Source: Pandoraea pulmonicola
GTDB lineage: Bacteria; Pseudomonadota; Gammaproteobacteria; Burkholderiales; Burkholderiaceae
Length of the DNA stretch: 64,000 bases
Assembly (NCBI RefSeq): GCF_000815105.2
Contig: NZ_CP010310.2
Coordinates: 3,658,001 to 3,722,000 of the forward strand
Direction: 5' to 3'
The position numbers were made by a program, and so were the translations under genes. The notes under the pieces were generated by a model, which worked only from the letters and a program-made list of their open reading frames with translations, was not told the DNA's origin and searched no databases. Positions 16,053-54,447 of this stretch are shown here, one piece after another (within the stretch, counting starts at the first letter, position 1; each line of letters begins with the position of its first letter).

Positions 16053-16056
16053 GCCG

Positions 16057-16953: not shown

Positions 16954-16978
16954 TAAACTCCTGAAGTCGTGGTTCGTC
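16954..16978 (+). promoter_or_regulatory. TAAA-N17-CGTC promoter (iron-starvation sigma type) for acylase gene
   Basis: TAAA at 16954-16957 and CGTC at 16975-16978 are separated by 17 bp, with the acylase ATG 37 bp downstream. The arrangement is that reported for OrbS/PvdS-class sigma factors. It recurs upstream of the other units of this locus. Confidence 0.65.
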
Positions 16979-16986
16979 GCTCAAAA

Positions 16987-17011
16987 GACGTATCACCAGC
17001 CCGCATATTTA
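16987..17011 (-). promoter_or_regulatory. TAAA-N17-CGTC promoter (iron-starvation sigma type) for FhuCBD operon
   Basis: On the minus strand TAAA (17011-17008) and CGTC (16990-16987) are spaced 17 bp, about 85-130 bp upstream of the FhuC-like start. It starts 8 bp from the end of the oppositely oriented acylase promoter, so the two promoters lie back to back in a 58-bp segment. Confidence 0.65.
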
Positions 17012-17015
17012 CTCC

Positions 17016-19649
17016 ATGTCACCCTCGCTCCTGCCGCAGTGCCTGCTCCGCCGTCGTGCACCGTCCTCCCCCCTCGTTGCTTCCCCTGCTTCCTCCGCTT
17101 CTTCCTTCGCTCCTGCCGCCTCGTTCCCGGGCGCCTGGACCGCCCGCCTGTGCGCTACGGGATTCGTGCTGACCTTGGGCGCCTGCGCGCAAACGGCGCC
17201 GCCTTCGACCGGGACGCCAACCTCTGCGGCCGACGCCCCTGCCGTCGCCGGCGCCACGGCGCCCGCCCCGCGCCAGCACTACACCGCCGACATCCGCCGC
17301 ACCCGCGACGGCACGGCGCACGTCCGTGCAGACGACTGGGGCGGCCTCGGCTACGGCTTCGGTTACGCGCAGGCTGAAGACAACCTCTGCACGCTGGCCG
17401 AAAGCGTCGTCACTTTCCGCGGCGAACGCGCGCTGAACTTCGGCGTGAACGGCCGGGTCGCACAGCGCGCCACCTTCGGCCAGCCCACGAACCTCGACGC
17501 CGACCTCTACTTCCGCCTGGTCTTCGACGGCACCACGCTCGTCCGTTACCGCGATGCACAGTCGCCGCGCGGGCGCGCGCTCGCCCAGGGGTTCGCCGCA
17601 GGCATCAACCGCTATCTGGGCGACTTGCGCTCAGGCGCCGACAGCACCCGGCATGGGGCCTGCCGCAACGCCGATTGGTTGCGCGATCTACCGCCGATCA
17701 CGGAAACCGATGTCTATCGCCGGCTCTACGCCGCCACGATCGCGGCCGGCTCGGCCACCCAGATCGCCGCCATCGCCCACGCGCAACCGCCGTCGGCACT
17801 CGCGACCGCAGGTCCCTCGGTGAACGCCGCCTCGCACGCCGATACCCGTGCGGCGCTGGCATCGTTTGCCGACGCCGGCATCGGCAGCAATGCCATTGCC
17901 TTCGGGGCGAAGCTGAGCGCGAAGGGTCAACCGATTCTCTATGGCAGTCCGCACTGGTATTGGCAAGGCGCCGACCGCCTCTACCCGGCCCATCTGACCA
18001 TCCCCGGCGCGCTCGACGTCTCGGGCGTCGGCCTGCTCGGCACGCCGTTCGTGATGATCGGTTTCACGCGGCAGGTCGCCTGGACGCACACCGTCTCGAC
18101 GGCAAGGCGTTTCGGGCTCATGGCACTGACGCTCGATCCGGCCGACCCGACCCGGTATCGCCTCGACAGTCGCACCGAAGCGCTGCGCAAGGTGACGATC
18201 GAGATTCCCGTGCGCGACGCGCAGGGCCGCGTGTCGGTCGTCTCGCGCACGCGCTACCGCAACGCCGACGGGCCAGTGGTGGATCTGTCCGCGATCTCGC
18301 CGGCACTGGGATGGACGACGCGCCAGGCGTTCGTGCTGCGCGACGCCAACGCCGCCAACTTCGGCCTGCTCGAGCATTACCTGCACATGGCGCAGGCCAA
18401 CTCGCTCGACACGCTGGCGAGAAACGCCCGTGCCGACGCGGCCAACCCATGGGTCAACACGCTCGCCATCGGCCGGGGCGATCCGCGCGTGTGGTACGGC
18501 GACATCGGCCCGGTCCCCGGCGTGTCCGATGCGCTGGCGGCCGAGTGCACGGCGAAGCCTGCCGGCGAGGCGTTTGCCAAGGTGGCCCCCGGTTTGCCCG
18601 TCCTCGACGGGAGTCGCAGCGCCTGTGCCTGGCAGACGACCAGCGACAGCCCCTTGCCGGGCACGCTGGGCCGCGCGCTGATGCCCGACGTGATGAGCGA
18701 CACCGTCGTCGCCAACATGAACGACAGCGCCTGGCTGTCTGCCCCCGACGCGCCTCTCCCGCATCTGATTCCCATCCTCGGGCCCAGCAACGTCCCGCTG
18801 TCACTGCGCACCCGCGCCGGACTGGCCCGTATCGCCGCCCTGCGCGCCGGCGGCCCGATCTCCCCGCAAGCGGTGCGCGACGCCGTCCTGCATGCGCAAC
18901 CCTACTCGGCAACGCTTACGCGCCAGACGTTGCTCGCGCGCGCTTGCGAGGCACCCATCGCACCCAACGCCTCAATGCCGGTGCAAGTTTCGCGCGATCC
19001 GCTCGACGGGAAGCCGCTCGCGGCGACGGCGAGCGTCGATATCGCCCCGGCGTGCCGCGTGCTGGCCGCATGGGACGGCAGCGCGGAGGGCGCATCACGA
19101 GGCGCCAACCTGTGGGACGCCGTGTGGATCCGGCTCGCCGGCGTCGATCCGACAGGTCGCCGCGCATTGGCCGGGCCCTTCGATGCCGCCCACGCCGCCA
19201 CCTCGCCCAATGCGTTGAGCGCCGGGCGCGACGCGCTCAGGCAGGCGCTCGGCGCCGCGGTACTGGAGATGCAGCGCATGGGACTGGCGCTCGACAGCCG
19301 CCGCGACGAGGCGCTCCACGCCGCGCGCGGCGGGCGACGTATCGGGCTGGCCGGAGGCTGCGACATCGCAGGCTACTTCTCGGTGATTTGCGCCGACGCT
19401 CGCATGGGCCCGGGTCGCTACGCCATGGACATCAGCCCGCGCGGCGACACCTATCTGCAAGTGGTGGCGTTTCCGGCCGAGGGCGTCGACGCCACCACGC
19501 TCGACGCCTCCGGGCCGGCAGACGATCCCGCCGACCCGCGCAATGGCGCAGCGCTCCAGGCGTGGGCCGACAAGCGCTGGCAGCGCGCGCCGTTCGACGA
19601 CGCCGACGTGGCCGCCGCCACCGTCAGCGAGCGCCGCATCAGTCAATGA
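17016..19649 (+). CDS. Periplasmic penicillin-acylase-family Ntn-hydrolase (PvdQ-like)
   Basis: An 877-residue N-terminal-nucleophile amidohydrolase. A long N-terminus ends in the lipobox-like TLGAC, suggesting a lipoprotein or exported precursor. The alpha-chain region contains GYGFGYAQAEDNLCTLAE. The beta chain would begin at Ser291 in the GSNAIAFG motif after autoproteolysis. Relatives cleave acyl-amide bonds: penicillins, acyl-homoserine lactones, or the fatty acyl chain of pyoverdine precursors (PvdQ). The siderophore-type promoter upstream and a FAAL-initiated NRPS in the same locus favour a role in siderophore maturation or turnover. AHL hydrolysis is an alternative. Confidence 0.85.
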   Translation: MSPSLLPQCLLRRRAPSSPLVASPASSASSFAPAASFPGAWTARLCATGFVLTLGACAQTAPPSTGTPTSAADAPAVAGATAPAPRQHYTADIRRTRDGTAHVRADDWGGLGYGFGYAQAEDNLCTLAESVVTFRGERALNFGVNGRVAQRATFGQPTNLDADLYFRLVFDGTTLVRYRDAQSPRGRALAQGFAAGINRYLGDLRSGADSTRHGACRNADWLRDLPPITETDVYRRLYAATIAAGSATQIAAIAHAQPPSALATAGPSVNAASHADTRAALASFADAGIGSNAIAFGAKLSAKGQPILYGSPHWYWQGADRLYPAHLTIPGALDVSGVGLLGTPFVMIGFTRQVAWTHTVSTARRFGLMALTLDPADPTRYRLDSRTEALRKVTIEIPVRDAQGRVSVVSRTRYRNADGPVVDLSAISPALGWTTRQAFVLRDANAANFGLLEHYLHMAQANSLDTLARNARADAANPWVNTLAIGRGDPRVWYGDIGPVPGVSDALAAECTAKPAGEAFAKVAPGLPVLDGSRSACAWQTTSDSPLPGTLGRALMPDVMSDTVVANMNDSAWLSAPDAPLPHLIPILGPSNVPLSLRTRAGLARIAALRAGGPISPQAVRDAVLHAQPYSATLTRQTLLARACEAPIAPNASMPVQVSRDPLDGKPLAATASVDIAPACRVLAAWDGSAEGASRGANLWDAVWIRLAGVDPTGRRALAGPFDAAHAATSPNALSAGRDALRQALGAAVLEMQRMGLALDSRRDEALHAARGGRRIGLAGGCDIAGYFSVICADARMGPGRYAMDISPRGDTYLQVVAFPAEGVDATTLDASGPADDPADPRNGAALQAWADKRWQRAPFDDADVAAATVSERRISQ

Positions 19650-19718: not shown

Positions 19719-19743
19719 TAAACATCGCGCCGTTTGAATCGTC
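19719..19743 (+). promoter_or_regulatory. TAAA-N17-CGTC promoter (iron-starvation sigma type) for TonB receptor
   Basis: TAAA at 19719-19722 and CGTC at 19740-19743, with 17 bp between, lie 86 bp before the receptor ATG. The receptor thus has its own promoter rather than relying on read-through from the acylase gene. Confidence 0.65.
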
Positions 19744-19828: not shown

Positions 19829-22087
19829 ATGAAGCACAACCGGAGCGTCCGTGGCCGGGCGCCCAGCAGCCGACGTCGGATCCATTGTCCCATCCATCGC
19901 CACATCGCCCTCGCCGCCGGCCTCGTCGCCGCACCGCTGGTCTTTGCGGTCAATGCTCATGCACAGGCGCCCGCGCGACCGTCCGGCGAGACAGCCGCGC
20001 AGACGAGCCCTGCGCAGACCGGCGGCGACGTGACGCTCGCACCGACGCGGGTAAGTGCCGAGCGTGCGCAGGAGAACGGCGCCGGGCCGGTGGACGGCAT
20101 CGTCGCGAAGCGCACCACGACCGGCACGAAGACCGACACACCGCTCATCGAAACGCCGCAGTCGGTCTCAGTGATTCCCAAGGAGATGATCCAGGATCTG
20201 GGCGCGCAAACCGTCAGTCAGGCCATGCGTTACAGCGCGGGCGTGCTGCCGGACAACGCGGGCTTCGAGACGCGCTTCGACTGGATCAACATCCGCGGCT
20301 TCTCCGCCTCGACGCTGGGCCTGTACATGGACGGCACCCGTTTGCAGTCGAACACAGAGTTCCAGCTGGAACCCTACGGACTGGAGCGCATCGAGATTCT
20401 GCGAGGGCCGGCATCGGTGCTGTATGGTCAGAACACGCCGGGCGGTCTCGTCAACATGGTGACGAAAAAGCCGCTGGACACGCCGCTGCATGAAATCCAA
20501 CTGACGGGCGGCTCGTTCAAGAACAAGCAGGCGGCGTTCGATTTCAGCGGCCCGCTCGATGCCGACGGCAAGGTGCTCTACCGCCTCGTCGGCCTGTTCC
20601 GCGACAGCGGCACGCAGGTCGATCACACGCCGAACGATCGCATCTACATTGCGCCGTCGCTCACGTGGAAGGCCACCGACAAGACGACGATCACGTTCGA
20701 GGCTAGCTATCAGCGCGACAAGCTCGGCTTCGGTCAATTCCTGCCCGCCTCGGGCACGGTGCGGCCCAACCCGAACGGCCAGATTCCGGTCGGACGCTTC
20801 GTCGGCGACCCAAACTACGACAACATCAAGCGGGAGCAGGTCTTCGCGGGCTACCAGATCGAGCACCGCTTCAACGACCAGGTGACGTTCAAGCAGAGCG
20901 CGCGCTATTCGTACTTCGACTACAAGGTCGATACCGATGGCTACGGGCTCGGCTACGCGGCGGGCAGCACCTCGATGCTCAACCGGCTGCCGTTCGCCGA
21001 TTACCGTCAGACCGACGTCGTGACCATCGACAACCAGTTGCAGACGAAGTTCGACACGGGCCCGTTCTCGCACGTCGCGCTCTTCGGCTTCGACTATTAC
21101 TACTACAACGAGCATCGCAGCATGCGCCAGGGTGTGGCGAACGCGGCGAACCAGATCAGCATCTTCTCGCCGAACTACGGCGCGGCGGTATTCGGCCTGA
21201 CGCGTCAGGCGGCCGACTCCGACTCGCGCTACACGCAGGGCGGCCTGTACTTCCAGGACCAGATCAAGTACGGCAAGCACTGGCTGCTTACCTTCGGCGT
21301 ACGTCAGGATTGGGCGGCCCAGAACGTGTACAACCGGCTGACGAACCGCTCGTCGAATCAGTCCGACTCGCAGGCGACGTATCGCGCGGGCCTGACCTAT
21401 CTGTTCGACATGGGGCTGGCGCCGTACTTCAGCTACTCGGAATCGTTCCAGCCCAACGTCGGCACCGACCGCTTCGGCAACCAGTTCAAGCCGTCCAAGG
21501 GCAAGCAGTTCGAGATCGGCGTGAAGTACCAGCCGGTCGGCTACAACAGCTTCGTCACGCTGTCGCTGTTCGATATCCGCATGTCGAACGTGCTGACGCC
21601 CGACCCGGCCAACACCGCCTATTCGGTGACGACCGGCGAGCAGCACTCGAAGGGCTTCGAGATCGAGGCGGTCGGCGAAGTCACCGACAACCTGAAGGTG
21701 ATCGGCTCGTACACGAACACCAACATCACCAACTCGAAGGCCAACGATCCAACGCTGCTCGGCAAGGTGCCGCCGCAGCAGCCGCGCACGGCCGCCGCCC
21801 TGTGGGCCGACTACACGTTCCACGCGGGCATGCTCAAGGGCTTCGGCTTCAACGGCGGCATTCGCTACGTCGGGCCGACATACATCGAAGCGACCAACAC
21901 GGTCGGTCAGGCGCCCTCGCGTACGCTCGTCGATCTCGGCCTGCATTATCAGTACGACAAGCACTGGCGCTTCCAGCTCGATGGCAGCAACATCTTCGAC
22001 AAGACCTACGTGGTGTGTGTCACGGCTTCACAGTGCGCCTACGGCGCGCGCCGCACCATCCTCGGCACGGCAAAGTACACGTGGTAA
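19829..22087 (+). CDS. TonB-dependent ferric-siderophore receptor
   Basis: A 752-residue outer-membrane receptor. A long signal peptide ends at NAHA-QA, then a Pro/Thr-rich segment, a plug domain (ETPQSVSVIPKEMIQDLG, WINIRGFSASTLGLYMDG, LERIEILRGPASVLYGQ) and a 22-strand barrel ending in the typical aromatic terminus AKYTW. There is no N-terminal secretin/STN-like signalling domain, so it should not drive a FecI/FecR-type surface signalling cascade. AAGGAG lies 7 bp before the ATG. It imports the ferric form of the siderophore made by the adjacent NRPSs. Confidence 0.93.
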   Translation: MKHNRSVRGRAPSSRRRIHCPIHRHIALAAGLVAAPLVFAVNAHAQAPARPSGETAAQTSPAQTGGDVTLAPTRVSAERAQENGAGPVDGIVAKRTTTGTKTDTPLIETPQSVSVIPKEMIQDLGAQTVSQAMRYSAGVLPDNAGFETRFDWINIRGFSASTLGLYMDGTRLQSNTEFQLEPYGLERIEILRGPASVLYGQNTPGGLVNMVTKKPLDTPLHEIQLTGGSFKNKQAAFDFSGPLDADGKVLYRLVGLFRDSGTQVDHTPNDRIYIAPSLTWKATDKTTITFEASYQRDKLGFGQFLPASGTVRPNPNGQIPVGRFVGDPNYDNIKREQVFAGYQIEHRFNDQVTFKQSARYSYFDYKVDTDGYGLGYAAGSTSMLNRLPFADYRQTDVVTIDNQLQTKFDTGPFSHVALFGFDYYYYNEHRSMRQGVANAANQISIFSPNYGAAVFGLTRQAADSDSRYTQGGLYFQDQIKYGKHWLLTFGVRQDWAAQNVYNRLTNRSSNQSDSQATYRAGLTYLFDMGLAPYFSYSESFQPNVGTDRFGNQFKPSKGKQFEIGVKYQPVGYNSFVTLSLFDIRMSNVLTPDPANTAYSVTTGEQHSKGFEIEAVGEVTDNLKVIGSYTNTNITNSKANDPTLLGKVPPQQPRTAAALWADYTFHAGMLKGFGFNGGIRYVGPTYIEATNTVGQAPSRTLVDLGLHYQYDKHWRFQLDGSNIFDKTYVVCVTASQCAYGARRTILGTAKYTW

Positions 22088-22253: not shown

Positions 22254-26504
<4,251 letters not shown>

Positions 26505-26566
26505 CGAAAGATCCTTCTTCAGAGAACATCCACGAATCGAATGGCGGCGACACGCCGCGCGCCCAT

Positions 26567-29500
26567 TCAGGCCGCATCGGCCTCCAGGTCGCCGAGCAGA
26601 TCCTCGAGCGCGTCGCGGGCGCCGGCATCGAGCGCCGCCGGCGCGGCGGCCGACCACGCCGCACAGAAGTCGGCGAGCACCGGCGTTTCGAACACCTGCC
26701 GCAACGCCACGGAACGGCCCGACGCGGCCTGAAGCCGCGCCACCATCTGCGTGGCCAGCAACGAATGTCCACCGAGCGCAAAGAAGTTGTCGTGACGTCC
26801 CACGCGCGGCACGCCCAGCACCGTCCGCCACACCTGCGCGACGTCGGCCTCCGCGCCCGGCCGCGGCGCCACGAACTGCGCGGCGACCGCTTGCGGCGCC
26901 GGCAGCGCGCGGCGGTCGAGCTTGCCATTGGGCGTGAGCGGCAAGGCGTCGAGCCGCAGCCACTGACCGGGCATCATGAACGCCGGCACGCGCGTGGCGA
27001 GGTGATCGCGCAGACGCATCCACAAGCTGTCGCCGCCGCCGCCGCCACCACCGCCCGTCACCACGTAGGCCACCAGTTGCTCGCCCGCGCCGTCGTTGCG
27101 AACCATCACCGCGGCGTCGCGCACCTCGTCGTGCGCGAGCAACTGCGCTTCGATCTCGCCCGGCTCGATGCGAAAGCCCCGCAGTTTGACTTGCTGATCG
27201 CCGCGTCCGAGGTAGTCGAGCGTGCCGTCGGGCAGACGCCGCACACGGTCGCCCGTCAGGTACATCCGTGTTCCCGGTGGCCCCCACGGGTCGGGCACGA
27301 AGCGCTCCGCACTCAACGCCGGACGGCCGAGATAGCCGCGCGCGAGCCCATCGCCGCTCACGTAGAGATCGCCGGGCACGCCCATCGGCACTTCCGCCAG
27401 CGACGCGTCGAGCACCCGCCAGCCGATGTCGGGCAGCGGCTCGCCGATGGGCGAAGCACCGAGGCCGCCCACGGGCGCCACCACGCCGTAGCTCACATAG
27501 ACCGTCGTCTCCGTCGGGCCGTACATGTTGACGATGCGCGTACGCTCACCGACGCGCTGCCACCACGGCGCCAGTCGGCGAGGCGTGAGCGCTTCGCCGG
27601 CGAGCACGATGTTGCGCAACGACGTCTGCGACACCGCCTCCGGGAGCGCGCCGAGCATTTGATAGAACGCCGAGGGCGTCTGGCACAGCACCGTCACCGC
27701 CTGCTGTCGAATCAGCGTCCAGAGCGCCTGCGGTTCGCGGCTCGTGTAATACGGCACGACGACGAGACGGCCCCCGTGCGCCAGCGCGCCGAAGATCTCC
27801 CACACGGACACATCGAACGCGTAGGAATGGAACATCGTCCAGACGTCTTCGGTACCGAAACCGAACCAGTCTTCGGTGGCGTCGAGCAGCCGCGTCAGTT
27901 GACGGTGCTCGACCTGCACGCCTTTGGGCCGCCCCGTCGAGCCCGACGTGTAGATGACATAGGCGAGTTGAGCGGCGTCCACGGCCTCGGCCGGCGGCGC
28001 GGCAGGCAACGACGCATCGTCGAGCAGCGTCTCGACGGCCAGACTCACCGGCGGCAGCCAAGCCGCGCCCAGCATCGCCGCTTCGGTAAGCACCACGGCG
28101 ATATCGGCGTCATCGACGACATAGGCGAGACGTTCCGCCGGATAGGCGGGATCGAGCGGCACGTACGCTCCGCCCGCCTTGAGCACGCCGAGGATGGCAA
28201 CGATCAGTTCCACGCGACGCGTCATCGCAATGCCCACGCGGTGCTCGCGCGCCACGCCGTGACGCAGGAGCGCATGCGCGATGCGATTCGACTGTTCGTC
28301 GAGCGCCGCGTATGTCAGCGAGTGCTCGCCGTCGGTCACGGCGATGGCGTCCGGTTGCGACCGACCGAAAGCCGCGATGATGCGATCGACCGTCGCGCCC
28401 GCGTCGAAGGTGCGGCGCGGTCCACGCTGCGCGGCCCATGCCGGATCGGTCTCGTGCAGCACCACGTCCGCCACGCGAAGCGGGGCGTCTTGCGGCGCGC
28501 ACAGTTGTTCGAGCAGATCGCGCAACTGCGTCCACAGACGCTCGACGGCCGGGCCGTCGAAATGCTCGCGGTCATAGCTCATGCGCACGTCGATCGTCTC
28601 GCCCGAGGCGATACCGATCGTGAGCGGGTAATGCGTCGTTTCCACGTTCACGATGTCGCCGAAGCGCAGCGCCTGCGCCCCTTGCGAGCGCAGCGCACGG
28701 TCGACGGGGTAGTTCTCGAAGACGATCAGCGAGTCGAACAGCGCCTGTCCGGGCCAGCCGACCCAGCGCTGGATGTCGTAGAGCGGCGTGCTCTGCGCTT
28801 CGCGCATGGCCAGGTTGTCTTCCTGCAGACGATGCAGCCAGTCGTCGAGCCCGTCGCCCGGCCGTGGCCCCTGCACCACGGGCAGCGTATTGATGAAAAG
28901 CCCCATCATGCGCTCGGCGCCCGGCAACTCCGGCGGACGGCCGGACACGGTGACGCCGAAGCAGACGTCGCGCCGTCCCGTGTAACGCTGCAGCAGCAAC
29001 GTCCACGCGCCTTGCACCAGCGTGTTGACGGTCAGACGCCGGCTGCGCGCCGCACGCTGCCATGCCTGCGCGCGCTCGGCGTCCACCTGGAAAGTGCGTT
29101 CGCCGTGGCCGGTCTGCGGGGCCGACGTGCGCAACACCGTCTCGTGCAGCCGTGTCGGTGTTTCGAAGGCACGCAACGCATCGCGCCAGAACGCCTCGGC
29201 ATGCCGCGGGGCGTGTCGGTCGAGCCACGCGATGTAGTCGCGATAGCGCGGTGCGGGCGGCACGGCGTCGGGCGAACCGGACAGATACGCCTGCAGGATT
29301 TCGCCGATGAGCTGGGCGCTGCTCCAGCCGTCGAGCAGCACATGATGCAACGTCCAGATCAGTTGCCACGCGTCCTCGCCGACACGCACGAGCGCCACGC
29401 GTTGCAGCGGTGCACTCGCAAGATCGAATCCCTGCGCCCGTTCGGCTTCGGCCAGTTCGCGCAGCACGCCGTCGCCGTGCTGTCCGACGCGCTCACGCCA

Positions 29501-32500
29501 GTCGAGCACCCGTAGCACCTGCGGCACCTCGCGATGCACGAGTTGCAGCGGCGGCGCGCCTTCGCGCCAAACGAAACTCGTGCGCAGGATCGCGTGGCGT
29601 CGCACGGCGGCTTGCCACGCGGCCGCGAATCGGTCCGGTTGCAGCCCTTCGAGCCGGATTTGCAACTGATTGACGTAGGACGCGCTGTCCGGCGCCAGAC
29701 GCGCATGGAACACCATCCCCTGCTGCATCGGCGAGAGCGGATAGACGTCCTCGAGCTGGCTCGCCGACACCGGCAGGTCAGCCAGGGCGGCTTCGCTCAA
29801 GTTCGCAAGCGGGAAGTCGGCCGCGCTCGCGCCCTGCCCGTCGGCGCATGCGTCGACCAGTTGTGCCAGGGTCGCCCGCATGCGCGCCGCAACCTTCTCG
29901 ATGGTCGCCTCGTGGAATCGCGCGCGCGAGAAACGCCATTGCAGACGCAGCACGCTCCCGATCACGGCGCCGTCGACCGACAACCAATTGCCCAGCGGCG
30001 CCGACGCGTCGCGTGCAGCACCGGCAGGCGCGTCGCTCGGGGCGAACCGACCGTCGCCGAAACCTGCATCGAGACGACCGAGATAATTGAACGTCACACG
30101 CCCTTGCGGCAATGCCGCCATCGCGTCGCGCACGGACGCGGCGCCGTGATGGCGCAACGCACCGAAGCCGAGTCCGGCGTTCGGTATCGACCGCCACGCG
30201 CGCTTGAGTGCGAACAGCGTGTCGCGCGGCATCGCCGCCACCTCGACGGCGAGCGGATAGACTGCCGTGAACCAGCCGACCGTGCGCGAAAGGTCGAACG
30301 CTTCGGCGCCCGGCATCTGGACTTCATCGCGCCCGTGGCCTTCGACACACAACGCGATGCGTTGCCCACCCGTCCACTCGCCGACGGCCTGCGCCAGCGC
30401 CGCCACCAGCAACTCGTGGATCCGCGCGCGATCGTTGGCGACGTCCAGCAATCGGCGCGTTGCGTCGGCGTCGAGCGTCAGCGTGACTTCGGCGGCATCG
30501 GCCTGCCTGTCGCCGTCGGGTGGCGTCGCGTCCGTCGGCAACGTGTCATGAGCGCCGTGCAGGGCGTCCGCCCAGTATTGCGCTTCCTGCACGCCCTCGG
30601 ACGACACCGCCCAGTCACGCCAGAAGGCAGCCCACGCGTGCGGGGAGCCCGCCTCCGGCAACGTCACCGGCTGACCGACTTCGATCTGGGCAAGTACGCG
30701 TTGCAGATCCGCGAGCAGAATACGCCAGGAAACCCCGTCGACGACCAGGTGATGACACACGAGCAACAGACGCTGCACGCCACCGGGCAAGGCGACGAGC
30801 AAACCGCGCAACAACGGGCCGTCGGCAAGCGACAGACCGCGCTGTGCCTGCTCCGCGGCTGCCAGCGCCTGCGCTTCGTCGGCGGCATCGACCGCATCGA
30901 GCAGGACGAGCGGCGCGCCACTTGCCGCACGATGCGGCTGCCAGCCCTCGGGCGTCCGGCGATAGCGCATATGCAGCGCGTCGTGATGCGCGGCAACGGC
31001 CTGCAAGGCCTGACGCAAGGTCGGCGCATCGAGCGGGCGCCCGGCGTCGCGAACTTCCACCTGCACCCATTGATTCCAGTGGTCGCGATGCTCGACCGGC
31101 GACGCGAAGAACCACGCCTGCACCGGCAGCAGCGCCGGCGTATCGTCATGCGCGGCGTTATCGGATGGCACCCCGGCTTCCCGCGCTTCGTGTCCCGCTT
31201 CCGCCACGGCGGCCAGTTCCGCCAGCGTCTGATACCGGAACACGTCGCGCACCGTGATGCGCCAGCCGGCCTCGCGCGCCCGGCTCACCAGTTGCAGCGC
31301 GACGATCGAATCGCCGCCGAGGGCGAAGAAATTGTCATGGCGACCGACTTGCGCCGCGCTCAGCAATTGCCGCCATACCTCTGCCAATGCCGCCTCCGCG
31401 CCGTCACGCGGCGCTTCTTCGCTCGCACTGTGCCACTGCGGCGCGGGCAGCCGCTTGCGATCGAGCTTTCCGTTCACGAGCTTGGGCAACGCATCGAGCA
31501 CGACGATCTGCGCGGGCACCAGATAGGACGGCAGCCGTGCGGCGAGCGCCTGACGCAACTGCTCGCCGAACTCGACGGGGTTCGTCCCGTTCGTCCCATT
31601 CATCCCGACCGGCAGCCCCGCGCTCACGTGCGCGACGAGCTGCACGCCCGCCGGTCCCTGCGCCGTGCCGACAACGGCCTCGCGAACGCCCGCCTCGGCA
31701 AGCAGTTGTGCTTCGACCTCGCCCGGTTCGATGCGAAAGCCGCGCACCTTGAGTTGCTGGTCGCGGCGTCCGAGGTATTCGAGCGTACCGTCGTCGAGCC
31801 AGCGCACGCGGTCGCCCGTGCGATACATGCGCGCGCCCGGCGCCCCCCACGGATCGGGCACGAAGCGTTCGGCGGTCTGTCCCGGCCGCGCCAGATAGCC
31901 GCGTGCGACGCCTTCGCCGCCCAGATAGAGCTCGCCCGCCACACCGACCGGCGCCGGCACAAGGCGGTGGTCGAGGACGTAGGCGCGCCGTTTGCCTACG
32001 AGCGACCCGATGGGAGCATACGGTGTGGGGCTTTCGCCACCCGCGAGTACGGTCCAGTTCACCGGTGTGACGACGGTCTCCGTTGGCCCATAGCCGTTGA
32101 GCAACCGGGACGGCTGCAACGTGCGCATGACAAGGGCGAGCGTGTCGCGCGACAGCGCCTCGCCGCCGCACGAGTAGATCAGTCCGGGCGGCACGGCATC
32201 CGGATGCGCATCGACCCATTGCGCCACGTGGCGCAAAAGCGCGGTCGGCAGTCCGGCATTCGTCAGACGCCGGGTCGTCAGTTGCTCGCAGATTTCCTGC
32301 GGCGTCCATTGGCGCTCGCCGCGCAGCACCACGCATGCGCCGTGCGAGAGCAGCGTGAGCCACCGTTCGTGCGAACCGTCGAACGAGAGCGAGGCCACAT
32401 GCAGTTCCCGGAACGCCGGCGTCATGCCGAAGAGGCGGCCGATCGCGCGGCAGTGCATTGCGATAGGCCCGTGCGGAACCGCCACCCCCTTGGGTCGCCC

Positions 32501-34527: not shown

Positions 34528-34528
<1 letters not shown>
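26567..34528 (-). CDS. NRPS, modules 4-5: C-A(OH-Orn)-PCP-E-C-A(?)-PCP
   Basis: A 2653-residue two-module synthetase. Module 4: C with HHLISDGGSL, A with FTSGSTGRPKG and pocket code D-G-E-A-S-G-G-V-T-K (hydroxyornithine-like), PCP with LGGDSI, and an epimerase with HHLVVDG, GHGRDEV and RTVGWFT. Module 5: C with HHVLLDGW, consistent with a D-residue donor, A with code D-V-W-C-V-A-M-V-Y-K for which I recall no exact match, and PCP with LGGHSL. A run of eight glycines (near 27040) sits in the C-terminal A subdomain. Its ATG overlaps the stop of the upstream NRPS gene (ATGA), so expression is coupled. Confidence 0.93.
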
Positions 34529-47790
<13,262 letters not shown>

Positions 47791-47886
47791 GACGGTAGCG
47801 ACTCGCGAAGCAGGGACGAATTCGAAAATTGGGGCGCAGAAGCACAAACGTGCAGGCGCAGGCGCGGGCAGCGCCCGCGGCGCATT

Positions 47887-48861
47887 TCAGCGGTCGGCGC
47901 CGTGCGCCTGCGCCATTGCCACGACCACCTTGCGCGGGCCCTTGAACGGCGAACGCGCGTGAGCGGCGAGCATGTTGTCGAGCATCAGCACGTCGCCGCT
48001 GTGCCACGGGAAGCTGATCTTCTCGGCTTCCAGAACATGGCGAATGGTGGCGAGCGCCTCCTCTTCGAGGGGACTGCCGTCGCCGTAGTACACGTTGCGC
48101 GGCAGGTCCTCCTCGCCCACGACGTCCAGCAGCGTCTCGCGCACGTCGGGTTCGAGATTCGAGATGTGGAACAGGTGCGCCTGGTTGAACCAGACCCAGT
48201 CGCCGGTCGCCGGATGCTGCGCCACGGCCTGACACACCTGACGCGTGCGCAGCTCGCCGTCCTCCTTCCACTCGCACGCGATGCGGTGCGCACGGCAATA
48301 GGCTTCGACTTCGGCACGATCCTCGGTGTTGAAGACCTGCGACCACGGCACGTCGAAGCCGTTGCCGAAGTTGCGCACGTACATCAGCCCCTTTTTCGCG
48401 AAACGCTCGCGCAGATCCCGCGGCAGACGCGCGTAGACGCGACGGCTGTCGGCGATGGGCGTCTCGCCGCCCTCCTGCGCCGCCTGCACGCAATGGAACC
48501 AGATCTTCATGGGCCAATCGCGCGTGTACGATTGTTCGTTGTGTAGAGGGATGTGCTGGTGCGGCGGGTACTCGGTGGACGTGTAGACGCCCTGGGCGAC
48601 CTTGCTGCGCGGCGTGGAGCCGAATTCGTAGGTAAGCAGCGCGTGGCCGAACGACGCGGCGAACTCGCGGAAGGCGGCGTCGCCGTCGACGCGAAAGCCC
48701 CGGAACAGAACGCCGCCGTGCGTCGGCAGATATTCCTCCACCAGCGCATGCAGGGCGCTGCCTGCTGCGTCGATCGGCACACCGGCATCGCGCGGCTCGA
48801 CCACCATCGGCAAGCCACCTTCGGTGCGCAGGGCACGCACATCGAGCATCGTATCGAGCAT
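47887..48861 (-). CDS. TauD/SyrP-like Fe(II)/2-oxoglutarate oxygenase (aspartyl beta-hydroxylase, OrbG-like)
   Basis: A 324-residue non-haem iron oxygenase. The facial triad appears as H-N-E in IPLHNEQSY and the distal His in MLDNMLAAHAR; an HxE rather than HxD first pair is usual for SyrP-type enzymes that act on carrier-bound Asp. It probably hydroxylates aspartate on one or both Asp modules, giving the beta-hydroxy-Asp iron ligand. The ATG at 48861 (MLDTMLDV) is preferred to the upstream 48909. It precedes the first NRPS gene by 96 bp and should be cotranscribed with it. Confidence 0.87.
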   Translation of the reverse strand: MLDTMLDVRALRTEGGLPMVVEPRDAGVPIDAAGSALHALVEEYLPTHGGVLFRGFRVDGDAAFREFAASFGHALLTYEFGSTPRSKVAQGVYTSTEYPPHQHIPLHNEQSYTRDWPMKIWFHCVQAAQEGGETPIADSRRVYARLPRDLRERFAKKGLMYVRNFGNGFDVPWSQVFNTEDRAEVEAYCRAHRIACEWKEDGELRTRQVCQAVAQHPATGDWVWFNQAHLFHISNLEPDVRETLLDVVGEEDLPRNVYYGDGSPLEEEALATIRHVLEAEKISFPWHSGDVLMLDNMLAAHARSPFKGPRKVVVAMAQAHGADR

Positions 48862-48910
48862 GATTGGATCCTCAACGAAACCGCGGCGCAAATCGCGCCG
48901 CCTTATCAAG

Positions 48911-48934
48911 GACGATCCTCACGCGCGCAATTTA
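48911..48934 (-). promoter_or_regulatory. TAAA-N16-CGTC promoter for hydroxylase/NRPS operon
   Basis: Minus-strand TAAA (48934-48931) and CGTC (48914-48911) are spaced 16 bp, one less than in the other sites. CGTC ends 50 bp before the hydroxylase ATG. The first three bases of TAAA are also the TAA stop codon of the exporter gene. If used, it drives the hydroxylase and all three NRPS genes. Confidence 0.55.
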
Positions 48935-50617
48935 AGTCCTTCGCGCGGACGATTGCGGTTTTTCCGCTGCCGACGCCGGACCTGCGTGCACGACCGCATC
49001 GTCGGCGACCAGTTGACCGTTCTCCATCTTCACCAGCCGGTCGGCGAGCGCGAAGTAGCGATCGTCGTGCGAAATCACGAGCACGGTCTTGCCCTGCGCC
49101 TTGAGCTCCGGCAGGATTTCGCGATAGAAGACCTCCTTGAACGCCGGGTCCTGGTCCGCCGCCCACTCGTCGAACACGAGGAACGGACGATCCTCGACGC
49201 ACGCCGCCACCAGCGCGAGCCGCTTGCGCTGCCCCTGCGAGAGATCTCGCGTGGAGAACGCGCCGTTCGTCACGCTTACCTTGTGTTGAAGATGCAGACG
49301 GGCAAGCCAGCGCGCGGCGAAGGCGTCGATGCGCGCCGGATCGGTCTGCGCATCGTCCGCGCCCAGCAGCGTCTCGAACAGATGGAAGTCGAAGAAGATC
49401 GCGGAGAACAGCTGGCGATAACGATCGCGATTGCTGGCATCGACCGGCTGACCGTTCCACACGATTTCACCACTCTCCGGCACGTACAGTCCCGTGAGCA
49501 ACTTCGCGAGCGACGTCTTGCCGCTCCCGTTGCCGCCGATCAGGAACGTGATCTCGCCGGGCCTGAACGTCAGATCGATGGGCCCCAAGCGGAAGATCTC
49601 GTCCTGCTGCTCGTGGTAGTAGCTGTGCGTGATGCCGTGCAGCCGCACGAGCAGTGAGCCGCTGGGCCGCGTGTCGGACGCGCTCGCCTCCTCGCTGCGC
49701 ATGGCCTCGGTCACCTTCTGGATGCGCTCGCTCGCCACGCGCGCCATCGTCAGCAGCGGAATGTTGTTGAGCATCGCCTCGAGCGGCGTCACCATGTACA
49801 GAAACACGATGGCGTAGCCGGTCGCCACGTGCACACCGCCGGAGGTCGCCCCCACCAGCACGAACAGCACGAGCCCGATCAGCGCGAAGAACAGGAAGCG
49901 CACCCAGCTCACCGAGAAGATGAACAGGGTGAGGCCGCGCGAGCGGTTCTCGCGCACCGCCTCGATGGCCACGCCCAGCACGCGCGCCAGGAACGCGTCG
50001 GCGCGACGGCGGTTGAGCTTGAGTTCCTTCGCGCCCGAGGCGAGCGTCTGGAAGTGTCCGAAAAGTTCGTCCTGGCGCTTCCCGGCGGTGCGCAGGTAGC
50101 GAATCACCTTCGTATGGCTGATGTGATAGCCGAGCGCACCCAGACCGATCGCCACACAGGCCATCAGGAAGATCGGCCACGACAGGATCGCCAGATAGAG
50201 AAAGCACCCGGTGACGATGGAACCGTTCATCACCAGCGTCGGCAAACCGATGAAGAAGTTGGCGACGTGATTGGCGTCGTCCGCGAGCACGGACTGCACC
50301 CGTGCGCCTCCGGTCGACTCCACCACGCGCAGCGGTGCATTCACGATGATGCGCGAGACGTGGCGACGCAGCTCGGCCAGCGTGCGCTGCCCCAGACGCG
50401 TGAACAAGGCGCCGGCGCACATCTGGGCGAGCATCGACAGCACGGCCAGCGCCGCGAAGCGCCAGGCCAGCGAACCGAGTTCGTCCGCGCTCGCACCGAG
50501 CGCACGATTGATCGAAGCAATCAGCGTGACGTTGGCCACACCGCAGGCGAGGCTGGCGAGCACGGCGGCGGTCAGCAGCCAGCGCGACGCACGCAACAGG
50601 AACAGAAACAGGAACAC
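48932..50617 (-). CDS. Cyclic-peptide-type ABC exporter, fused permease-ATPase (PvdE/OrbE-like)
   Basis: A 561-residue half-transporter with an N-terminal six-helix membrane domain (MFLFLFLLRASRWLLTAAVL onward) and a C-terminal ATPase: Walker A GGNGSGKTS, signature LSQGQRKRL, Walker B FLVFDEWAADQD. This SyrD/PvdE family moves NRPS siderophores or their precursors across the inner membrane. The start codon is GTG at 50617, supported by GGAG 6 bp upstream. It faces away from pvdA across a 360-bp intergenic region. Confidence 0.92.
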   Translation of the reverse strand: MFLFLFLLRASRWLLTAAVLASLACGVANVTLIASINRALGASADELGSLAWRFAALAVLSMLAQMCAGALFTRLGQRTLAELRRHVSRIIVNAPLRVVESTGGARVQSVLADDANHVANFFIGLPTLVMNGSIVTGCFLYLAILSWPIFLMACVAIGLGALGYHISHTKVIRYLRTAGKRQDELFGHFQTLASGAKELKLNRRRADAFLARVLGVAIEAVRENRSRGLTLFIFSVSWVRFLFFALIGLVLFVLVGATSGGVHVATGYAIVFLYMVTPLEAMLNNIPLLTMARVASERIQKVTEAMRSEEASASDTRPSGSLLVRLHGITHSYYHEQQDEIFRLGPIDLTFRPGEITFLIGGNGSGKTSLAKLLTGLYVPESGEIVWNGQPVDASNRDRYRQLFSAIFFDFHLFETLLGADDAQTDPARIDAFAARWLARLHLQHKVSVTNGAFSTRDLSQGQRKRLALVAACVEDRPFLVFDEWAADQDPAFKEVFYREILPELKAQGKTVLVISHDDRYFALADRLVKMENGQLVADDAVVHAGPASAAEKPQSSARRT

Positions 50618-50755: not shown

Positions 50756-50780
50756 GACGATCCAGACAGCCGGAAATTTG
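50756..50780 (-). promoter_or_regulatory. CAAA-N17-CGTC near-match promoter for exporter gene
   Basis: Minus-strand CAAA (50780-50777), 17 bp, then CGTC (50759-50756), 138 bp before the exporter start. It differs from the locus consensus by one base in the first element. The following TTT after CGTC is shared with the pvdA and FhuC sites. Confidence 0.4.
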
Positions 50781-50831: not shown

Positions 50832-50856
50832 TAAATTTCACAGCAAGCGTCTCGTC
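50832..50856 (+). promoter_or_regulatory. TAAA-N17-CGTC promoter (iron-starvation sigma type) for pvdA
   Basis: TAAA at 50832-50835 and CGTC at 50853-50856, spaced 17 bp, lie 121 bp upstream of the ornithine oxygenase ATG. This fits the same sigma-factor class as the other sites of the locus. Confidence 0.6.
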
Positions 50857-50977: not shown

Positions 50978-52333
50978 ATGCACGCAAGTACCGAACCGTC
51001 CACAACGTCCAATCCTTCCCTTACCCACGACCTGATCGGCGTAGGCTTCGGCCCGTCAAATCTGGCGCTGGCCATCGCTCTCGAGGAGCACTGTGGCCAG
51101 CGACTCGGCCCGGCCCGCTTCCTCTTTCTCGAGAAGCAGCCGGAGTTCGCCTGGCACGGCAACATGCTGCTCTCGAACAGCCGCATGCAGATCGCCTACC
51201 TCAAGGATCTGGCCACGTTGCGAAATCCGCGCAGCCGCTTCACGTTCATCAACTATCTGCACGAGAAAGCGCGGCTTTCCGCGTTCATCAACCTGCAGAG
51301 CCACTACCCGACGCGGCGCGAGTACAACGATTACCTGCGCTGGGCCGCGGCGCAGTTCCACGCGCAATGCGCCTACGGCGAGACGGTGATTGGCATCTCT
51401 CCCGTGATCGAGCGCGAGCAGGTCGTGGCGTTGCACGTCCATTCACGCAACGCGCAAGGCGAGACGCAGGTGCGGCGAGCGCGCAACGTCATTCTCGGCG
51501 CGGGCGGCACGCCGCATGTCCCGCCCGTGTTCGCATCGCTGAATGCCGCCGGGCATCCGAGGCTCTTTCACTCGTCGCAGTATCTGGCGCGCGTGGCTGC
51601 GCTCAATGGCGACGCACCGCCCCGTCGTGTCGCCGTGATCGGCGGCGGGCAAAGCGCCGCCGAGATCTTCCTCGATCTGGCCGAGCAGTGGCCGCACGCG
51701 CAGGTCGATCTCGTCATGCGCGGCCGTGCGCTCAAGCCCGCGGACAGCAGTCCGTTCGTCAACGAGATATTCGACCCGCAATTCACCGACTTCATCTATG
51801 CCCAGCCGGTCGAGCAGCGCGAGCGCATCCTGGGCGAATTCCGCAACACCAACTATGCGGTCGTCGACGACGATCTCATCGCCCGCATCTACGACGTGCT
51901 ATACCAGCAGCGCGTCGACGGCCACGGCCATCGCGCGCTGCTGACCTGTCACGAGATCGAAGATGTCGAAGCGCACGACGATCACCTCACACTGCACATG
52001 CACGAGCGACTCACAGGCAGGCACGTTACGCAGCACTACGATGCGGTGGTCCTCGCGACCGGCTACGAACGCCGCACGCACGAGCATCTGCTGACCGACG
52101 TACGCCCCTGGCTGGACGGCTTCGACGGCGAGCGCGATTACCGTCTGCGCGCGCATGCCGACTTCCTGCCCGGCATCTACCTGCAAGGGTACTGCGAGTC
52201 GACGCACGGCTTGTCCGACACGCTGCTGTCGGTCCTGGCGATTCGTTCGGCCGAGATTGCGGCGTCGCTGCTCGCACATGCGCCGCCGCAAGCCGAGGCG
52301 CCTGCATCGCGCATTGCCGCCCTGGTCGGCTGA
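50978..52333 (+). CDS. pvdA: L-ornithine N5-monooxygenase
   Basis: A 451-residue class B flavoprotein of the PvdA/SidA/IucD family. The FAD motif is GVGFGPSNLALAIAL near the N-terminus, the substrate region includes FAWHGNMLLSNSRMQIAYLKDL, the NADPH motif is VIGGGQSAAEI, and the FATGY-type motif is LATGYE. It converts L-ornithine to N5-hydroxyornithine, the hydroxamate precursor required by the two D-G-E-type adenylation domains. It is alone on the plus strand in this part of the locus, with its own sigma-type promoter. Confidence 0.95.
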   Translation: MHASTEPSTTSNPSLTHDLIGVGFGPSNLALAIALEEHCGQRLGPARFLFLEKQPEFAWHGNMLLSNSRMQIAYLKDLATLRNPRSRFTFINYLHEKARLSAFINLQSHYPTRREYNDYLRWAAAQFHAQCAYGETVIGISPVIEREQVVALHVHSRNAQGETQVRRARNVILGAGGTPHVPPVFASLNAAGHPRLFHSSQYLARVAALNGDAPPRRVAVIGGGQSAAEIFLDLAEQWPHAQVDLVMRGRALKPADSSPFVNEIFDPQFTDFIYAQPVEQRERILGEFRNTNYAVVDDDLIARIYDVLYQQRVDGHGHRALLTCHEIEDVEAHDDHLTLHMHERLTGRHVTQHYDAVVLATGYERRTHEHLLTDVRPWLDGFDGERDYRLRAHADFLPGIYLQGYCESTHGLSDTLLSVLAIRSAEIAASLLAHAPPQAEAPASRIAALVG

Positions 52334-52379: not shown

Positions 52380-52397
52380 GCGGCACCGCGGTGCCGC
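52380..52397. terminator. 18-bp perfect palindrome between convergent pvdA and reductase genes
   Basis: GCGGCACC-GC-GGTGCCGC forms a strong hairpin in the 137-bp gap between the converging pvdA and FhuF-like genes. There is no T-tract on either strand, so factor-independent termination would be weak; the position still suggests a bidirectional stop or a protein-binding palindrome. Confidence 0.4.
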
Positions 52398-52470
52398 ACG
52401 TCCGCAGGCGCCGGAAAAACGACGGGAACGAACGCGCGGGAGAATGGGAAAGCGCGAGAGGGATCGCGAA

Positions 52471-53397
52471 TTACTGCGGCGCGCCTTCGGCCTGCAAGGC
52501 CAATTGGCGCGCCAGTTGGCCATGCGTCATGGTGAGCAGCAACGGGCAACTGCCGCACAGCAGCGCCTCGTCGCACCGGGTGCCCTTTCCCGCGAGTTGA
52601 TAGCGCAGGCAGCACACGCGCCGCGCCCGCATCGGCGCGGGCATTGCCGGCGAAGGCGGCGAGACATAGCGCACCGTGCGGAACAGCGGATTGTCTCCCG
52701 TGCTGCCGAATCCCGCGTCGGCCTCGAAGAGCCACGTATAGTCCTGCGATGCACGCTGGGCGAGCGAAGGCACCTGCCGCATGTGCGCCACGATGAACTC
52801 GAACAGATTGCCCACGTTGCTCCACAACACGCGCGGCGAGACCCCAGCGGCGGCGTGCATGGCGGCGATCGCGGCGGGCAGATAGTCGTGCAGCAACGAG
52901 GCGAAGCGAACCGCCGGCGGCGGAGTCGGAACGGCGTCGTGTGCCGCCTGCCCCGGCGGCGTCCAGGCATCGGACGCGAAGCGCACCTGCACAGGCAAAC
53001 CGCCGCGCAGCACGATCGCGCACGTACGGGGGTCGAGCGTCAACGGGCGACCGTGCACGATGACGATCGCCAACGCGGCCGGCAGCACCGCACGGAAATG
53101 GAACTTGCTCCATTGCGACATCAGCGCACGCGGCTCGACGCCAGGCACGATCCGTCGCACCCCGTCGAACATTTCCGGCAGATGCTCGCCCAGCGCGCTC
53201 AACGCGACGACATCGTCGCCCGGCAGTCCCGCATGGGATGCGGGCGTGCCAAAGTCGAGCCCGGCACACAAGGGTCCGAGCTCGGCACGAATGGCATCGG
53301 GCAGGCTCGCTGCCAGATCGAAATTTCCCGCAGTGACGGCACTGATGGCGTTCGACATCGCTCCCTGCATTCCTCCCTTGTCGCGCAGCCGCGTCAC
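52471..53397 (-). CDS. Siderophore-iron reductase (FhuF/OrbF-like)
   Basis: A protein of up to 308 residues with the FhuF-type C-terminal cysteine cluster, CC in RRVCCLRY and CxxC in LLCGSCPLL, which binds a [2Fe-2S] centre. It would reduce Fe(III) in the cytoplasm or at the inner membrane and free it from the hydroxamate siderophore. The start is uncertain: GTG at 53397 overlaps the thioesterase stop as GTGA, while ATGs at 53370 and 53358 lie beside GGGAG sequences. Last gene of the MbtH-thioesterase-reductase unit. Confidence 0.87.
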   Translation of the reverse strand: MTRLRDKGGMQGAMSNAISAVTAGNFDLAASLPDAIRAELGPLCAGLDFGTPASHAGLPGDDVVALSALGEHLPEMFDGVRRIVPGVEPRALMSQWSKFHFRAVLPAALAIVIVHGRPLTLDPRTCAIVLRGGLPVQVRFASDAWTPPGQAAHDAVPTPPPAVRFASLLHDYLPAAIAAMHAAAGVSPRVLWSNVGNLFEFIVAHMRQVPSLAQRASQDYTWLFEADAGFGSTGDNPLFRTVRYVSPPSPAMPAPMRARRVCCLRYQLAGKGTRCDEALLCGSCPLLLTMTHGQLARQLALQAEGAPQ

Positions 53398-54143
53398 GCG
53401 CAGGTCGCGGGACGCGGCGAGTGCATGACCGGCGCCAGTCCGTTGGCGATCACGGCCAGCAGATGCGCCGGATCGTCACGCACGAAGAAGTGATCGCCAT
53501 CGAAGTCGGTCCGCTCGTACCTTGCATCGGTCTCGCAGCGCCAGTCGTCGAGCACTTCGGGGGCGAACGCGTCGCGCCGCCCGGCAAGCGCATGAATGGG
53601 TACGGGCAACGGACCGCGCGCTTGCGGCGAAGGGCGGCGATAGCGCCCGCACAACTGGAAATCGGCCTTGATCACCGGCAACACCATTGCCATCAACTCA
53701 GGCTCGGCGAGCAGTGCGTCGGGCGTGCCGCCCAGCGCACGCATCTCCGCCAGCACGTCGGCGTCGTCGCGCAATGCCGCATAGCGGCTGTCGTCGCGCG
53801 TGGCGGGCGCACGGCTTGCCGCGACGAACAGCGCCACCGGCGTGCAACCGCGCGCGTGCAGTCGGTGCGCGATTTCAAATGCCAACAGCCCGCCCAGGCT
53901 ATGCCCGAACAACGCGAAACGCGTGCCCGGCCCGATGTGCTGCGCCAGGCACTCTTCGCTCAACTGGTCCGCCAGCAGGTGTGGATCGGAAGAGAGCGGC
54001 TCGCGATGACGCGTGCCACGCCCCGGCAGTTCGAGCGGCCGCACCGCCAGCCACGACGGCGCGGCTTGCGCCCAGCGGGCGTACACCGTGGCACTGCCTC
54101 CGGCGCACGGCAGACACAACAGGTGGCATACGTCAAACGCCAT
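53394..54143 (-). CDS. Type II thioesterase (editing) for NRPS
   Basis: A 249-residue alpha/beta hydrolase of the GrsT/SrfD family: [14 protein letters not shown] at the N-terminus, [12 protein letters not shown], nucleophile elbow FGHSLGG near residue 80, and the C-terminal catalytic His in DGDHFFV. Such enzymes hydrolyse wrongly loaded acyl groups from carrier domains. It overlaps the MbtH gene upstream by 11 bp and the reductase gene downstream by 4 bp. Confidence 0.92.
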
Positions 54144-54360
54144 GGCGCCCGTCGCCCTGTGCTGCCAGATGTTCGCGCAGGCTGCGAGGCCGCATGTCGG
54201 TCCACACCGTCTCGATGTGCGCCAGGCACGTCGCCTTGTTGCCGCTCACACCCACTTCGCGCCAGCCCGCCGGGACAGGGCGGTAGTCGGGCCAGATGGC
54301 GTACTGTTCTTCGTCGTTGATGACCACACGGAACACGCCGTTCTCGTCGTCGAAACTCAT
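54133..54360 (-). CDS. MbtH-like protein (adenylation-domain partner)
   Basis: A 75-residue MbtH protein. It has [10 protein letters not shown], the conserved N-x-E-x-Q...WP signature, followed by GWREVG and [13 protein letters not shown]. MbtH proteins bind the N-terminal part of adenylation domains and are needed for solubility or activity of many of them. The ATG at 54360 with GAGGAG 6 bp upstream is chosen; an in-frame TTG at 54381 is less likely. First gene of the unit driven from 54423-54447. Confidence 0.94.
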
Positions 54361-54422
54361 CGATGGCTCCTCTATAGGCAATTGTTATGCGAGGCGCGAG
54401 CTGCGCCCGGCTCCTTCGAGTA

Positions 54423-54447
54423 GACGGCTCAGGCGCCGCCCGATTTA
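54423..54447 (-). promoter_or_regulatory. TAAA-N17-CGTC promoter (iron-starvation sigma type) for mbtH unit
   Basis: Minus-strand TAAA (54447-54444), 17 bp, then CGTC (54426-54423), 63 bp before the MbtH ATG. TAAA contains the TAA stop codon of the phosphopantetheinyl transferase gene, so the promoter is tucked against the end of that gene. Confidence 0.6.

Follow-up and report, generated by a model that had tools for sequence, protein, structure and literature searches.

Within a window of 64,000 nucleotides of Pandoraea pulmonicola DNA (contig NZ_CP010310.2, positions 3,658,001 to 3,722,000; positions below are counted from the first letter of the window), units of a siderophore locus are preceded by a recurrent dyad, TAAA followed after 16 or 17 bp by CGTC. 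We conclude that these elements are probably the -35 and -10 boxes of an iron-starvation sigma regulon, read by the extracytoplasmic function (ECF) sigma factor that the locus itself encodes; judging from sequence comparison, we give this reading a probability of about 0.88. An earlier note on the same DNA had listed six TAAA sites and one CAAA variant and had likened them to promoters of OrbS/PvdS-type sigma factors. All were recovered at the same coordinates, strands and spacings (Table 1). The likeness is well supported: the OrbS consensus is printed with TAAA and CGTC in the excerpted text of PMC4786211, the same -35 and -10 boxes stand 16-17 bp apart here, 12 of 12 genomes retain the sites, and the locus holds a sigma gene preceded by a Fur-box-like site. 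Two other parts of the note are revised below, namely that the acylase in the regulon is not obviously related to iron and that the exporter site is an equal member of it.

Members of Pandoraea infect the lungs of people with cystic fibrosis. This kind of regulation is already known; what is added here is a sequence-level map of the regulon for a pandorabactin-type locus, none having been found in the available text of PMC12144892 or in the literature searched. Among the matches listed, mostly from non-subscription literature, we found no printed iron-starvation sigma regulon for pandorabactin, no acylase as a member of one, and no face-to-face element of the kind described below. The map also assigns an acylase of the MacQ/PvdQ type to a pathway in which the product retains its acyl chain, so that the natural substrate of such acylases becomes testable.

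Frequency and conservation of the elements

The window holds eight exact matches to TAAA-N16/17-CGTC, whereas dinucleotide shuffles predict 0.84 +/- 0.92 and none of 100 shuffles reached eight. The earlier note had proposed scanning the whole genome for the pattern and measuring its enrichment near iron genes. Of the 76 matches in the genome, 68 lie outside the window, at a density that predicts 0.75 within it. Six of the eight window matches stand at promoter positions. The remaining pair, absent from the earlier note (59838-59862 and 60036-60059, both on the plus strand), lie inside called genes, look like chance occurrences, and were rejected as promoters. CAAA-N16/17-CGTC taken alone is not enriched in the window (three matches, 4.2 expected).

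For a test free of any preset pattern, pairs of four-base words with spacers of 14 to 20, neighbouring spacers being merged, were counted in the 200 bases upstream of ten starts in the locus, a set of regions chosen post hoc, once the finding was known. Among the 23,139 combinations that occur, TAAA-16/17-CGTC ranks first and is the only one to reach six of the ten regions; the density in the genome predicts 0.012 such dyads in the same upstream space. When the letters of the dyad are permuted (96 versions, the real one included), the runner-up, AAAT/CGTC, occurs in four regions, three versions occur in one region each, and the rest occur in none. This runner-up consists of the real sites shifted by one base, plus the exporter variant.

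Our genus set comprises 32 genomes, that of P. pulmonicola included. A close orthologue of the sigma factor (85-89% identity) is present in 11 of the 31 others, and conservation was counted over these 11 and our own. The exact dyad stands upstream of the receptor, tauD, pvdA and mbtH genes in all 12 genomes, and none of these lacks the acylase site or the site facing it before fhuC (in G016 the contig ends before fhuC). Exact matches occupy 72 of 72 promoter positions, six units in each of 12 genomes, and 66 of these positions belong to the relatives. Around the boxes, invariant columns make up 48 of 101 in the spacers, 22 of 150 in the 5' flanks and 63 of 150 in the 3' flanks; in such a count the invariance of the boxes themselves follows by construction, and the independent fact is that every genome has a match.

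The exporter site, a CAAA variant found where the earlier note had put it, is not an equal member of the set. Read off the alignment of the 12 genomes, its -35 box is CAAA in five, AAAA in six and AGAA in one, never TAAA, with CGTC as the -10 box in all 12. In two OrbS-like loci (L219 and L171), TAAA is present at the exporter.

The elements before the acylase gene and fhuC point towards one another and together span 16954-17011, a composite of 58 bp. In 12 of 12 genomes the distance is 33 bp between their starts and 8 bp between their -10 boxes; the acylase ATG lies 36 bases 3' of its own -10 box (37 in the window), again in all 12. If transcription starts about 7 bases after CGTC, as is usual, the two transcripts would have start points only a few bases apart, and each would cross the -35 box of the other promoter. 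We infer from this geometry that one polymerase should exclude the other at the composite element. The literature on divergent promoters offered no usable precedent for a face-to-face element among the matches listed.

Outside the window, 65 of the 68 matches were examined, the three left out being copies of one repeated sequence. Called genes contain 31 of the 65, another 25 are intergenic, and nine overlap a gene end. Nineteen are promoter-placed, and 17 of the 19 downstream genes have some Pfam family at 1e-5. None of the 19 has a Pfam family linked to siderophores or iron uptake, and one carries a Rieske [2Fe-2S] domain. A wider regulon was therefore rejected and, at the sensitivity of exact matching, the regulon appears to be confined to the locus.

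In three other genomes, the dyad recurs with homologous sigma genes. On plasmid p1 of Caballeronia insecticola (L219) it stands before the operon that follows the sigma gene, before the nonribosomal peptide synthetase (NRPS) genes and before the exporter; a further dyad, overlapping a Fur-box-like stretch, stands ahead of the sigma gene. Locus L171, from genome G043, has it at the same three places. Cupriavidus campinensis (L218) has one dyad between the sigma gene and a hydroxylase gene, and another in a repeated sequence. Five Pandoraea relatives carry another acylase-bearing siderophore locus and no close sigma orthologue, and the exact dyad is found in none of their five 20-kb stretches. 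As a separate observation, the dyad match TAAAGGTTCATGGGGTCTTTCCGTC (L012) occurs four times in the P. pulmonicola genome and once in Cupriavidus campinensis (L218, 24116), and is probably part of a shared insertion sequence.

That the dyads arise by chance or serve some other sigma factor, with their shared sequence reflecting only common descent of the locus, is very improbable. The 12 genomes do share ancestry, and 12 further sigma-like matches (E <= 0.001; 13 with the resident sigma factor) occur in this genome. Yet spacers and flanks vary while all 66 positions in the relatives match, six different upstream regions in a single genome share the dyad, and the dyad keeps company with homologous sigma genes in the three other genomes just described.

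The sigma factor and a Fur-box-like site

The sigma factor that the earlier note had placed at 55659 is indeed encoded there; it is an ECF sigma factor with regions 2 and 4 only. Scored against the E. coli Fur consensus quoted in an excerpt of PMC4786211, the single best place in the window is 55335-55353, upstream of this gene and in a block conserved in the 12 genomes. A Pfam scan of the immediate neighbours of the sigma gene found no anti-sigma gene, FpvR-like ones included: the next open reading frame (ORF) has no Pfam match, a GGDEF gene lies on the other strand, and the phosphopantetheinyl transferase gene lies on the other side.

We propose that in iron-rich cells Fur with Fe(II) would block the sigma gene at the Fur-box-like site. 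With iron short, the sigma factor would be made, would join RNA polymerase, and would switch on at least six units: the acylase; fhuCBD with the acyltransferase; the receptor; the hydroxylase with the NRPS genes; the ornithine hydroxylase; and mbtH with the thioesterase and fhuF. The exporter may follow from its weaker variant.

Two known systems invite comparison. With the OrbS regulon for ornibactin in Burkholderia cenocepacia, as given in excerpts of PMC9023288, PMC4786211 and PMC8908255, the locus shares an ECF sigma gene in the locus, a Fur box, TAAA/CGTC promoters and, as far as the immediate neighbours of the sigma gene go, the lack of a detected anti-sigma gene. It differs in that OrbS serves three promoters, PorbE, PorbH and PorbI (PMC9023288, excerpt), against six or seven here, with the acylase as an addition. 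With the PvdS regulon for pyoverdine in Pseudomonas aeruginosa it shares the -35 box, that of PvdS being very similar to that of OrbS promoters in the excerpts, and an acylase (PvdQ, induced by iron limitation) alongside an acyl-primed NRPS. It differs in that no FpvR-like anti-sigma gene was found next to the sigma gene, and in that PvdQ removes the fatty acid of a precursor whereas pandorabactin keeps its N-acyl group (PMC12144892, available text).

A tree of sigma factors was built from 18 hand-picked rows, some of them long (eight of 83 proteins found, nine loci and our own); it holds no named OrbS or PvdS row, and L219 was taken as OrbS-type from its gene order. Our sigma factor groups with Cupriavidus sigmas (L218, P0011 and P0029; support 99/97), the OrbS-like L171 and L219 group together (100/99), and the fork that joins the two groups lies in a poorly supported backbone. 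A named PvdS-type reference was sought through family NF005448, and none in the control genomes scored over its cut-off.

In OrbS, C-terminal cysteines sense Fe(II) (PMC9023288, excerpt). The C-terminal tail of our sigma factor has no Cys, a difference from OrbS in addition to its grouping with Cupriavidus; at least one Cys occurs in this tail in 67 of 88 usable rows (of 89). Four cysteines around region 2.2 (C50, C52, C66 and C72) are kept in the 12 Pandoraea genomes and are also present in P0004, P0006 and L218. At least three Cys occur around region 2.2 in nine of the 88 rows, and eight of these nine lack a C-tail Cys, versus 13 of the 79 others; because the rows are related, the pattern may represent one event. 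The comparison points to a sigma lineage, distinct from OrbS, that employs the same promoter code but lacks the iron-sensing cysteine tail, and a different on-board metal or redox sensor around region 2.2 is possible. An N-terminal CxxC sensor was rejected, the C5/C8 pair being absent in the other 11 genomes. In an AlphaFold2 model (mean predicted local distance difference test score, pLDDT, 81; predicted template modelling score, pTM, 0.45; alignment of our own sigma factor and 54 of the 83 proteins), C52 and C66 are predicted 14 residues apart on one helix, at its opposite ends, so that the four Cys could not form one site in one chain, and a single four-Cys metal site was rejected. Judging from the helix ends, two Cys pairs acting as separate sites are possible.

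Several points weigh against assigning the elements to the resident sigma factor. All 12 genomes belong to one genus, and gene calls around the sites outside the window came from our own caller, which had been trained on this window. No exact dyad occurs in two other stretches that carry a sigma gene, L172 (G033) and L173 (G032), and the wider stretch of a control locus (L217, G010) has one match, inside a receptor gene. The sigma factor itself scores 186 bits with its best NCBIfam model, just under the cut-off of 190, and does not group with the OrbS-like sigmas in the 18-row tree. Among the 32 genus genomes, the acylase (70-75% identity) is found in exactly those 12 that have the sigma factor; as both lie in one locus, this co-occurrence reflects locus membership and is not independent proof.

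A locus of the pandorabactin type

By its gene and domain content, the locus is of the pandorabactin (pan) type. Like the pan cluster of Pandoraea oxalativorans and P. sputorum, as described in the available text of PMC12144892, it has a hexamodular NRPS with FAAL, a TauD-type hydroxylase and an ornithine hydroxylase, together with an acyltransferase, a phosphopantetheinyl transferase, an MbtH-like protein, a type II thioesterase and a TonB-dependent receptor. Its NRPS domains are one FAAL-like, six further adenylation, seven carrier and eight condensation-type domains and a terminal thioesterase; the condensation-type domains comprise six C and two E, the E domains being assigned from order and domain counts. 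The FAAL-started six-module NRPS, the two E domains and the accessory genes of the pan biosynthetic gene cluster are thus all present. The FAAL-like domain of NRPS 1 has a relative at 54% in G033. The main text of PMC12144892, as available, has no hits for acylase, sigma or promoter.

Pandorabactins keep a 3-hydroxyhexanoyl or 3-hydroxyoctanoyl N-acyl chain, which is closed as a lactone, and contain one 3-hydroxybutyrylated and one free N-hydroxyornithine; a producer strain is P. oxalativorans DSM 23570, assigned there to risk group 1 (PMC12144892, available text). Genome G008 carries the sigma factor, the promoter sites and the acylase, and a 3-kb test piece of it is a 100% match to a P. oxalativorans plasmid. 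On this sequence match, the sigma factor, the sites and the acylase also occur in a known pandorabactin-producing species, identity of G008 with DSM 23570 not being implied.

Among the genes compared, that of the phosphopantetheinyl transferase (54445-55299, minus strand) is the least conserved, with 46-53% identity in 10 relatives; in the same comparison tauD, the exporter, pvdA, the thioesterase and the sigma factor show 82-94%.

Table 1. Elements and genes of the siderophore locus, in window coordinates.
Feature	Position	Strand	Remarks
Acylase promoter element, TAAA-N17-CGTC	16954..16978	+	kept in 12/12 genomes
fhuC-fhuB-fhuD-acyltransferase promoter element, faces acylase element	16987..17011	-	kept in 12/12 genomes
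TonB-dependent receptor promoter element	19719..19743	+	12/12 genomes
TauD-type hydroxylase + NRPS operon promoter element, 16-bp spacer	48911..48934	-	12/12 genomes
Ornithine N-hydroxylase (pvdA-like) promoter element	50832..50856	+	12/12 genomes
mbtH-thioesterase-FhuF-like operon promoter element	54423..54447	-	12/12 genomes
Peptide exporter, weak variant, CAAA-N17-CGTC	50756..50780	-	-10 CGTC in 12/12 genomes, -35 never TAAA
Fur-box-like site upstream of sigma gene	55335..55353	.	14/19 matches to E. coli consensus
ECF sigma factor, proposed reader of the elements	55659..56243	+	Pfam Sigma70_r2, Sigma70_r4_2
GNAT acyltransferase, candidate PanQ	11789..12913	-	PF13523
FhuD-like binding protein	12965..13975	-	profile matches
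FhuB-like permease	13965..16229	-	profile matches
FhuC-like ATPase	16057..16902	-	profile matches
Ntn-hydrolase acylase, MacQ/PvdQ-like, predicted lipoprotein	17016..19649	+	PF01804
TonB-dependent siderophore receptor	19829..22087	+	profile matches
NRPS 3 ORF, module 6 + thioesterase	22254..27287	-	true start probably near 26570
NRPS 2, modules 4-5	26567..34528	-	domain matches
NRPS 1, N-terminal FAAL-like domain + modules 1-3	34528..47847	-	FAAL label from order and sequence
TauD-type (aspartyl beta-hydroxylase), candidate PanH	47887..48864	-	PF02668
Cyclic-peptide-type ABC exporter	48932..50617	-	TIGR01194 above cut-off
Ornithine N-hydroxylase	50978..52333	+	PF13434
FhuF-like ferric reductase	52471..53397	-	PF06276
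Type II thioesterase	53394..54143	-	PF00975
MbtH-like protein	54149..54361	-	PF03621
Phosphopantetheinyl transferase	54445..55299	-	PF01648

The acylase and its candidate substrates

The acylase is a penicillin-amidase-type N-terminal nucleophile (Ntn) hydrolase (PF01804, 304.5 bits), and scores 471 bits against the PvdQ equivalog model NF051460, below the cut-off of 950. Its nearest solved chains are 5c9i, 8so5 and 4yf9, followed by PvdQ; we take the first three to be MacQ. This is consistent with the MacQ structure paper (PMC5566955), the available text of which has no hits for siderophore. With MacQ from Acidovorax sp. MR-S7 the acylase shares the nucleophile Ser and six of the ten pocket positions given in that text (mapped by hand); Phe32, Phe50, Gln57 and Trp165 of MacQ correspond to Leu, Leu/Met, Met and Tyr. 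Conserved in 12 of 12 genomes are the nucleophile site G290-S291-N292, the His that follows and the Asn of NMNDS; 10 of 12 have a lipobox-like Cys. We propose that the enzyme is a working part of the siderophore pathway, an Ntn amide hydrolase that would reside in the periplasm, mostly as a lipoprotein.

The seven closest relatives with a named record are all from Pandoraea (68-75% identity; P. aquatica, P. commovens, P. terrigena, P. anapnoica, P. captiosa and two without a species name), and the next is from Caballeronia (44%). Diverged acylases (42-44%) occur in five other Pandoraea, in a different siderophore locus (L163-L167, L213, L214, L217). This second locus has fhuD, fhuC, an exporter and a phosphopantetheinyl transferase in five of five, NRPS genes and, upstream, tauD and a receptor in two (G027 and G010), and a FecCD permease in G027; a probe found no FAAL there, and so no sign of an acyl-primed start. 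In G033 (L168, L215) the acylase lies together with a thioesterase, tauD and a FAAL-started NRPS, with no exact dyad. Near the Caballeronia copy, neither the probes nor a scan of eight of 24 listed ORFs found siderophore genes, and near the copies in G039 and G057 the probes matched nothing more than general ABC ATPases. The family as a whole is mixed, but this branch, as its gene neighbourhoods place it, is siderophore-linked. The earlier note had drawn the acylase into the regulon as a gene not obviously related to iron. Its promoter, kept in 12 of 12 genomes, supports the first half; the second gives way before a MacQ/PvdQ fold, a place in a pan-type locus, and relatives that recur in other siderophore NRPS loci.

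According to the available text of PMC6206403, PvdQ, which is induced by iron limitation, acts in the periplasm, where it removes a fatty acid from a pyoverdine precursor. Because pandorabactin keeps its N-acyl chain, plain PvdQ-like removal during synthesis does not fit here. Tailoring of a different kind, in which the 3-hydroxybutyryl group would be removed from the second ornithine after export and the N-terminal chain, held in the lactone, would be left intact, is quite unlikely. Both ornithine modules would load 3-hydroxybutyryl-N-hydroxyornithine, and trimming would leave one acylated and one free. In its favor, adenylation domains 1 and 4 (53% identical) are alike at eight of nine specificity positions, read by hand at what we take to be the PheA positions; modules 1 and 4 (within 26567-47847, minus strand) thus have near-identical codes though the two ornithine side chains of the reported product differ. 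Domains 3 and 5, at whose places the product has Thr and Ala, share 66% identity, which leaves the argument from codes and identity weak.

The acylase could instead be a quorum quencher that cleaves acyl-homoserine lactones (AHLs) under low iron and leaves the siderophore untouched, the regulon being real all the same. Its nearest solved relative appears, on the assumption made above, to be MacQ. That enzyme degrades AHLs and beta-lactams (PMC5566955, available text), PvdQ serves in both AHL hydrolysis and siderophore maturation according to the excerpts, and the Caballeronia relative showed no siderophore genes nearby within the scope just given. We consider quenching unlikely, since the siderophore locus contains the acylase in all 12 genomes, and siderophore genes also neighbour its diverged copies in the five other Pandoraea and in G033 (there FAAL, TauD and thioesterase).

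A recycling role, in which the acylase would cut imported ferri-siderophore in the periplasm and so free the iron, is a tentative possibility with the odds leaning against it. A FhuF-like ferric reductase is already in the regulon, and a ferric reductase is a more usual route of iron release. Consistent with recycling are the lipobox-like Cys, the acyl chain that pandorabactin retains (PMC12144892, available text), and the position of the acylase gene, which diverges from fhuC immediately ahead of the receptor gene, in the part of the locus concerned with uptake. In one example of the second Pandoraea locus (L165), the acylase likewise precedes fhuD, the FecCD permease, fhuC and the exporter.

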